NCBI GenBank assembly: GCA_009760855.2
Contig: WPIO01000065.1
Location: 124,001-188,000, forward strand
Length of the DNA stretch: 64,000 nt
From: Cristatella mucedo
Lineage: Eukaryota > Bryozoa > Phylactolaemata > Cristatellidae
Reading direction: 5' to 3'
The position numbers and the translations under genes are program-made. Of this stretch, positions 12,301 to 15,300 are shown piece by piece. Positions within the stretch are counted from its first letter, which is position 1. Each line of letters opens with the position of its first letter. Under the pieces are notes generated by a model that worked only from the letters and a program-made list of their open reading frames with translations, made no database searches and was not told the origin of the DNA.

Positions 12301-15300
12301 TATCCACGGACCAGCCAAGCCGCACGAGTAGCCAGGCGACAGCCGACGACGATGGCCGGCCGGAAAAAAGGCATCCCCATGCGTACACACCCATGCCACT
12401 AAACGCCGACAAGCAAGTGTGTAACAAACAGGCTGCATGAAACGATGTTCGGTCGCCATCGACGCCCATGCAGCAGACGTTGCCGTGCAAACGACTCGCG
12501 CCGTCATCGGTGGGCAACGACGACCCCGACACATCGACGTGCTGATGCCACCTGCGCATGCTGCCAAGCCTCTGCTTACGCCTACCCATCATCTCGGACT
12601 CCACATGCAGCGCTTCAACGCCAGCTGCCAATTGTGGTGGAGAGAGCGGATAGCTTCCATCGACGGTGATGCACCACGGCGATCCAGGAATGGGAATCCC
12701 ACCGTATGCAATGCTTATGCCGTACGTGCCAGGAGCGGTGGCACAGTAGGTGACACGGCATAGGCCCTCGCCGATATCGTTTAACGATATCACCATCTCC
12801 GCAGGGCCCTCGGCGTGGACGGCCAGACGTAAGAGGAGCTCGCTGGCATTTGGTACGGCTGAGGCATCGACTACAAATTCTGCTCCGGCACCTAATACAT
12901 GGCCTGCCAAGCCGGTTCCACAAACTCGCACATAAGCAGCTTCTGAGACGACCGTGGCTCCTTGACTCAGCTGCCGTGGAAGACTGATGTCAGAAACTGT
13001 AGTGTGTGACGAGTCAGCAGCAAGTGCCGAGGACATCTCAGCTACCTCTCCGACTATTTCACATGTTTCTCCATCTCTCACAGTGACTTCTGAAACCAGA
13101 GGAGCCTGAGAAAACTGTCTTTGACAATCTGGTGCAATAAACTCTTCTGAAACCTGCCGTTCTGTAGCAGACTGACTTCGAGAAACTGGCTCTATTGAAA
13201 CCCACCGTCCTTGTGCAAGCTTGCTTCGAGAAACTGGCTCTATAGACCCTTTTGAAACAAGTTCTTTCGCAAGCAGATCTTGATAAGCAGGTGTTGCAGA
13301 CTTTTCTAAAACAAGCACTTCTTGAGCAAACTGGCCTTGAGAAACTGGTAATATAGACTCTCTTGAAACCCGCCGTTCTTGAGCAAATTGACCTCGAGAA
13401 ACTGGCTCTATTGACTCTTCTAAAACCAGTTCTTGGGCCAACTGATCTTGACAAACTGATGTTGCAGACTCTTCTGAGACCAATGGTCCTTGGGAAAACT
13501 GACCTTGAAAAACTGGTCCTATAGATTCTTTTAAAAACAGCAGTTCACGAGCAAACTGACTTGGGGAAATTGGCTCAATCGACTCTTTTGAAACCTGCCG
13601 TTCTAGGTCAAACTTACTTCGAGAAACTGGCTCTATTGACTCTTCTGAAACCAGTTCTTGGGCCAACTGACCTTGACAAAGTAGTGCTATAGACTCTCTT
13701 GAAACCTGTCGTTCTGTAGCAGACTGACTTCGAGAAATTGGCTCTATTGACTCTTTTGAAACCCGCCGTCCTTGTGCAAACTCACTTCGAGAAACTGGCT
13801 GTGTAGACTCTTCTGAAACCAGTTCTTGGGCTAACAGACCTTGAGAAACAGGGGTCATAGACTTTTCTAAAACCAGCACTTCTTGGAAAAACTGACGTTG
13901 ATAAACAGGCTCTATAGACTGCATGTTGACCTGGCTGCCAATGACAAGAGCAGAAACCGACTGGTTTATTTCCACTGTCGTCGTTAATGTGTCTTTGGCT
14001 TCCACAGCAGCACCTGAAGAGGTGGTGTTTCCTACGAAGTAGCCATCAGCATGCCTAAGTGACATGGAGATAGACTTCCGCACAGATAAATCACTTGTGG
14101 TGGCAGCAGAGACTGCCCCAGCGGCTAAGATTTCTAGTCCAGCTTCGAGTGCCATTTCAGCATCATATGAAAATTGGTCCTGGGAGCCATCACCATCTGA
14201 AAACCTGACAAACGCCCGTTTATTGATGGCAGAGGCTGACAACGTTGCTATTTCATTGGCTACCACAGCTGCTTCTTCAGCCTCAGAAGGATCAAATGAC
14301 CTTCCAGAAGACCCAGAGATCAATGCTGCTGCCAAACAAAAAGTAGACACAAATTTCGATCAGCTTGCAAATCAAACTCAATATTGTCACCGAGATGAGA
14401 CATGGCAAGGAACAGTACGCATGAAAACATGTTGAAGCAAAGAGCGTCGAATGTGAAATCATGTTTGACCGGCGGGGCTATGAAGAAAAAACATTTCCAT
14501 GCAATGGGACACACGAATGACCACCAAGTGGGTCAAACAATAGAGTTCGTATAACGAGCTGAAACTTACTTGGTTGAATATTTTCCACTTTAATTTGACT
14601 AACATCCACACTTGGCTTTACAGTGACACTATATGGGCTCAGAGGAACTTCTTTGTCAGCAAATAGTACGTTGACCGCCATTTTTCCAATGAACTTGGGC
14701 TCATACTCAATCCTGCAAGTGCAAAGTTGAGAATAAAACCACTCGACTAGAGGAAAAAAGAAAAACAATTCACATATATTGCACCAGCTTTCGACCAGCA
14801 CCTACTACAGCGAGAAAGAAGACCATGTTTTTTTCATTTTTCTTTGCCATCAAGAAGCATGAATTCACGAGGGGAAGTCAAGAAAATACCTATAACATTT
14901 GTCCGGCAATCGAATATGTGTTTATGGATCCTTTCGAAAGACAAACATGTTAGAATTGGGATCGGAAGTTCTGACGACTTCCGCAGGAAAGGGAAAATGT
15001 GTTATGCAAACTACACCTAATCCGGATGTAAACCGGAAGCAACAAATCTACAAATAACAGATTTACCAATCTCTGCATCATATGCGACTTGTACCCCAAC
15101 TTGTCGAACCTTGGTAGATCGCTAGAGATGCTTGAAGCTTGTTGAGGTGCATACTTGCGACTTTTGTACAGTTTCATTTCCAGGGTTGGTTGGTGCCTTG
15201 TAAATTAAATAACTAATATTTCACGTATCGTGAAATTTGAAATGTGAGTTCAGCTCTGCTTGTTTGACCCTAGTCTTTAATATTTGATTTCGGTTTGATA

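Follow-up and report, generated by a model that had tools for sequence, protein, structure and literature searches.

A filamin paralog of Cristatella mucedo in which a tandem-repeat insert, possibly part of a skippable cassette exon, stands in place of Ig7

One of two filamin paralogs in the genome of the bryozoan Cristatella mucedo contains an exon (exon 16) in which some 460 residues without Ig character appear to occupy the place of the seventh Ig repeat. Our preferred reading, to which we assign a probability of roughly one half, is that this exon is a skippable cassette that lost Ig7, grew by duplication of a repeat unit and adds a loose spacer to the rod. How the proposed cassette would be spliced, and how it would alter the mechanics of the protein, we infer from the DNA sequence. 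The window analyzed here is a stretch of 64,000 nucleotides (C614:124001-188000) from an assembly of 572 Mb in 688 contigs; positions given without a contig name refer to this window.

Exon 16 lies on the minus strand at 12586..14328, is in phase 1 at both ends, and was delimited on the outside by splice signals and phase. The acceptor reads TTTGTTTGGCAG/CA, with a second usable AG 3 nt downstream, and the donor reads TGG/GTAGGC. We took the donor at 12586 and passed over a higher-ranked one at 12703 because the latter cuts Ig8. Translation (P0001) gives 580 residues and no stop. Together with the Pfam search, this result confirmed the claim of an earlier note that a single open exon of 1743 nt supplies about 460 non-Ig residues and ends in Ig8. 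On the minus strand the insert begins with 136 unique residues that are rich in Ala and Ser and give no Ig signal (13919..14326; residues 1-136), continues with 15 tandem units of 16-19 residues each (13088..13918; residues 137-413), and closes with 47 non-repeat residues (12947..13087; residues 414-460) that lead into Ig8. The latter is a complete, diverged filamin repeat (12659..12946; PF00630 at residues 462-551, 43.6 bits, cut-off 26.9) and is followed by the A-strand stretch of Ig9. The tandem units fall into three sub-types, which are classes of our own making (class A has a consensus of 19 residues). They share 50-93% of their DNA sequence and differ in length by whole codons, and Tandem Repeats Finder reports periods of 57, 168 and 225 nt for the array, each a multiple of three.

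Upstream on the same strand, exon 14 (16099..16301) encodes the first part of Ig6, and exon 15 (14570..14712) encodes its end followed by an orphan A strand of Ig7, just as the earlier note had described; the donor of exon 15 (CAA/GTAAGT) is in phase 1. We take Ig6 to be human R6-like, based on a human sequence that also underlies our repeat numbering. Downstream, exon 17 (11336..11641, minus strand, acceptor in phase 1) encodes strands B-G of Ig9. The 35 Ig fragments of this gene extend over C614, on its minus strand, between about 154.5 k and 109.4 k, and the last of them (C614:109405) is 80% identical to the last fragment of the other paralog. Two CH matches upstream of the Ig exons on the same strand form a candidate actin-binding domain: CH domain 1 at 50860..51105 (C614:174860-175105, 51.4 bits) and part of CH domain 2 at 47576..47725 (C614:171576-171725, 29.2 bits). 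With this CH pair upstream of a long Ig array that ends in a putative dimerisation repeat, the predicted gene has the makings of a filamin. The expected run of uninterrupted Ig repeats in rod 1 is broken by the non-Ig residues of exon 16, and because the remaining filamin features that we tested are present, we read this interruption as a variant of filamin. Exons 14 and 15 are separated by an intron with a long inverted repeat (14869-15813; arms 14994-15214 and 15470-15690 with 93% identity, and additional arms that reach 14869 and 15813), which may be a mobile element of the foldback type.

The case for the loss of Ig7 is built on contig C667 of the same genome, which carries a second full filamin Ig series with CH matches upstream (806082-806321 and 810336-810482). 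The counterpart of exon 15 is found at C667:830568-830710. The homologue of exon 16 (C667:830932-831741) follows the Ig6 exon, has the same phases (1-1), and encodes the body of Ig7 (IQVNKEQRF..PRSPFK), a P/Q-rich linker of about 85 residues, and Ig8. When joined to the end of exon 15, this exon gave two filamin stretches in Pfam (143.6 bits). For its acceptor our script favored 830851 (2.2); we took 830932 (-1.4) because Ig7 continues there without extra residues, and the alternative 81 nt upstream would place extra residues ahead of an Ig7 that is still retained. Since this homologous exon has Ig7 between the same phases and flanks, the comparison supports the conclusion that Ig7 was lost from the C614 copy and that the insert occupies the place of Ig7 and the P/Q linker. 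The proposal that a single exon replaces this domain by a non-Ig segment of tandem repeats is likewise borne out. The earlier note had set against it an intact Ig7 exon elsewhere in the gene; a tblastn search with C667 Ig7 over C614:95001-188000 (E up to 10) found none. Of its 17 hits, twelve (E <= 0.32) coincide with exon 15 or with Ig fragments already assigned, and the other five (E >= 1.6) cover 14-40 residues. The orphan A-strand stretch of exon 15 matches its C667 counterpart at 9 of 19 residues. Extra sequence at the Ig7/Ig8 junction is a property of both paralogs (the P/Q linker of C667 spans 831153-831413).

The two genes are largely collinear, with 33 of the 35 C614 fragments finding their best partner in order among 33 C667 fragments compared. 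The two out of order (A24 and A25) face a region of C667 with 5 kb of N (~850001-855000). The only C667 fragments of the 33 that were chosen by none are Ig7 (B13) and a second R1 half-exon (B1). Identity between the paralogs is lowest at Ig8 (37%) and Ig9 (39%) and ranges from 46 to 92% for the other 33 fragments, so that exon 16 and its downstream neighbor evolve faster than the remainder of the gene. The missing Ig7 and the divergence of Ig8 and Ig9 could also be taken as signs of decay, exon 16 being an early casualty in the pseudogenisation of a second filamin. We consider this highly improbable given the ordered pairing of fragments, the 74-86% identity of those from C614:116513 onward, the CH matches in this gene and the absence of stops from the 23 exons (a subset of those in the gene) used to train our codon score.

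By our count against a human sequence, C667 presumably lacks two repeats of rod 1. Drosophila filamin also has two fewer rod 1 Ig repeats than vertebrates, as stated in PMC5521747, and for this reason C667 resembles an invertebrate filamin of the standard kind, with C614 looking like the altered copy. The likeness to Drosophila cheerio consists in an actin-binding domain and collinear Ig order. C614 departs from this type by the absence of Ig7 and the non-Ig residues found instead.

Several other filamin exons and loci came to light. Two tandem phase 1-1 exons are found on the minus strand at C614:124392-124219 (window 392-219) and, just outside the window, at C614:123963-123787; a matching pair occurs at C667:847779-847961 and 848388-848561. 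In both paralogs these exons encode the second half (strands C-G) of one Ig repeat, which we take to be human R17-like, and are preceded by one exon for the first half. From their arrangement the two exons look mutually exclusive, and they could switch the ligand-binding face. Since they match pairwise between the paralogs (A22-B23, 156 vs 134; A23-B24, 152 vs 138), the tandem pair probably predates the duplication of the filamin gene. Among the literature matches listed on mutually exclusive exons in filamin (10 of 27), none addressed such a pair by title. For the first half of Ig1, C667 has two versions (814317-814445 and 815070-815207), possibly another alternative exon pair, and C614 shows one. 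A third filamin-like gene is suggested by weaker matches to filamin Ig and CH domains on C277 (1408565-1507121, minus strand). Finally, five places in nuclear contigs, among them C166:4375626-4376390 and C83:3121-3735, match part of COX1 and are probably nuclear copies of mitochondrial DNA. On the mitochondrial contig itself (C688), COX1 is open under code 5, and together with the gene order this may point to a lophotrochozoan-like mitochondrion.

We then have to consider whether the insert is coding at all. Its frame contains no stop in the first 455 codons, with 27 and 20 stops in the other two sense frames. For the 277 repeat codons, simulations that introduced the observed number of departures from the class consensus (111 of 831 sites) produced 4.96 stops on average and none in 140 of 20000 runs; with uniform changes 53 of 20000 runs were free of stops. 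For the first part, 76 of 20000 Markov-1 sequences are open. The codon score of the first part in its own frame (0.044) lies well above the mean of -0.341 (sd 0.127, maximum 0.176) for the best of three frames in 127 intron pieces, and with stops penalized the own frame scores best of six for all four parts of exon 16. The score of the repeats (-0.149 bits per codon) falls inside the range of the intron pieces. The 23 other exons, which are also the training set of this score, range from 0.23 to 0.61, above both the first part and Ig8 (0.128), and the GC3 of the repeats (0.26) lies under that of all 23 (0.31-0.89). Among the units pN/pS is 0.90 overall and 1.08, 0.49 and 0.88 in the three classes. 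The same alignment read in two shifted frames gave 0.74 and 0.61, so that pN/pS among the units in three frames gives no sign of purifying selection specific to the coding frame. We read the insert as coding with weak constraint: the frame looks maintained while the residues drift almost neutrally.

The intron-like codon usage, low GC3 and near-neutral substitutions of the repeats could also mean that the insert is mostly intron. The true exon 16 would then start at a later acceptor, such as the one at 13089, which is in phase 1, scores 2.0, and is listed because our automatic acceptor scan spanned 150 nt upstream of Ig8. The repeats would be an intronic minisatellite that is open by chance, and three of the 127 intron pieces (408 nt) are indeed fully open in some sense frame. 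We judge this quite unlikely, as 413 codons that share the frame of Ig8 and fit the phase of exon 15 contain no stop, the simulations make both open parts improbable by chance, and the acceptor at 14328 is better (6.0). An assembly error, or an artefact in the number of units, is hardly credible. Tandem repeats are difficult to assemble, but differences of 7-50% between the units in DNA make a collapse unlikely, the insert is present once in the assembly, and its flanks and phases fit.

Protein and DNA searches of the 572-Mb assembly found no second copy of the insert, the DNA search being one that passes over simple repeats and words of very high frequency. In blastn across 272 kb (the loci and the window) every match of the insert was exon 16 itself. 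A transposon or satellite origin was rejected on the basis of this single copy. The idea that the first 136 residues hide an Ig fold was rejected at the level of sequence, since they score 0.6 bits against our own Ig profile, compared with 80.5 for C667 Ig7, one of the repeats from which that profile was built. Outside of Ig8, Pfam reported nothing over cut-off in exon 16; Phostensin_N (19.7 vs 23 bits, and 16 bits in another search), DUFs and HTH_12 all stayed below. The 48 PDB sequences that match the exon 16 protein at E <= 1 do so entirely within residues 447-565 (Ig8 and its edge), and Rfam has no match in the window.

The arrangement of the A strands provides the main argument for a cassette. 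Exons 15 and 16 each end in an A strand in phase 1, and exon 16 has ends of the same phase (1-1), as expected of a cassette exon. With phase 1 at both ends and a position between two A-strand/B-strand joins, exon 16 could be omitted with frame and Ig register left intact, an option that the earlier note had raised only among its grounds for refutation. The hybrid Ig formed by joining exon 15 directly to exon 17 scores 66.2 bits in Pfam (profile 2-92). The Ig9 of the unskipped exon 16-17 join scores 61.8 bits (profile 18-92), its A strand from exon 16 going unrecognized. In C667 the order is reversed (76.9 bits unskipped vs 72.2 skipped). Against the cassette counts the small size of the gain, 4.4 bits in one gene. 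Our splice scores use generic weights, and some automatic junction calls were wrong; on this scale exon 16 has a weak donor (0.8; five of the 23 other donors are lower, three probably misplaced by us) and is surpassed by the phase 1 donor inside Ig8 at 12703 (1.9). The acceptor is good (five of 22 other acceptors are higher), and its strength does not suggest skipping. Taken together, the hybrid scores and the weak donor are suggestive of a cassette.

We propose that the exon in the C614 copy lost Ig7 and gained its non-Ig residues largely through in-frame duplication of a 19-residue coding unit. As an optional cassette it would yield two kinds of isoform. In those without exon 16 the Ig rod would be continuous and shorter; in those with exon 16, Ig6 and Ig8 would be held apart by a long spacer under weak constraint, which would lengthen and loosen rod 1.

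Exon 16 may instead be constitutive, a possible reading that we hold only tentatively. Every product would then carry a permanent linker of about 460 residues between Ig6 and Ig8, acting as an extra hinge or as a multivalent platform for docking or phosphorylation. The good acceptor and the unbroken frame agree with such a reading. So do six matches inside the repeats to the kinase motif R-[RQ]-x-S, which could be kinase sites, although their number tells little since they were copied along with the unit. AlphaFold2 on a four-row repeat alignment produced short helices (mean pLDDT 64) in a model that is weak overall (pTM 0.20), and helical amphipathicity in the unit cores did not stand out from their own shuffles (lowest 170/2000). 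The unit-to-unit pN/pS speaks against a constitutive exon, as does the better Ig formed with the orphan A strand of exon 15 than with the one that Pfam missed in exon 16. The near-absence of amino-acid constraint in the repeats would also argue against a precise docking surface. Vertebrate filamin hinges measure some tens of residues and are far shorter than the insert, which if included would part Ig6 from Ig8.

Charge-hydropathy values of the first part (+0.19), the repeats (+0.07, slightly on the folded side) and the tail (+0.19), set beside those of the C667 P/Q linker (-0.05), of C667 Ig7 (+0.12) and of Ig8 (+0.36), do not call the insert disordered. The suggestion of a flexible extra hinge or docking platform found no support in these values or in pN/pS. 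The description of the insert as charged holds weakly (charged residues make up 25% of the repeats and 18% of the first part). The structure prediction proposed for exon 16 was run, and its single-sequence model stays at pLDDT <50 even over nearly all of the true Ig8, so that it carries no information on the insert. A further and rather doubtful reading is that of a C614 filamin with a regulated third hinge, in which one Ig gave way to an array of 19-residue units that can expand and that carries basophilic kinase motifs in repeated copies. Splicing and phosphorylation would set the length and stiffness of rod 1, and the other paralog would serve as standard crosslinker.

The cited papers offer two comparisons from vertebrates. 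FLNC has an 82-residue insertion in R20 (PMC7216277) and, like C614, thus shows a non-Ig insertion in one filamin paralog; that insertion is in rod 2, whereas the one in C614 is in rod 1, much longer, made of tandem units and accompanied by loss of an Ig. Hinge 1 is encoded in FLNB by exon 30 and in FLNC by exon 32, and some cells leave these exons out (PMC6103745, PMC7216277). Loss of FLNB exon 30 removes a hinge that governs flexibility and leaves the remaining protein unaltered (PMC6103745). The likeness to these exons lies in being skippable, which for exon 16 is our proposal, and the change to rod 1 would be comparable. Their hinge 1 lies between R15 and R16, whereas exon 16 is situated between Ig6 and Ig9 and includes an Ig as well. 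The insert itself, between Ig6 and Ig8, matches neither position of the calpain-sensitive filamin hinges (R15/R16, where rod 1 meets rod 2, or ahead of the last repeat). Among the literature matches listed, from which subscription papers were mostly outside the scope, no filamin with a comparable insert appeared by title or abstract start.

If the insert is translated, this paralog would amount to a natural experiment on the extent to which filamin rod 1 must consist of Ig repeats, and the Ig7-retaining paralog in the same genome would be its built-in control. The case would then also show how an Ig rod can swap a bead for a linker, and leave the neighboring repeats undisturbed, by way of a symmetrical exon flanked by A strands.
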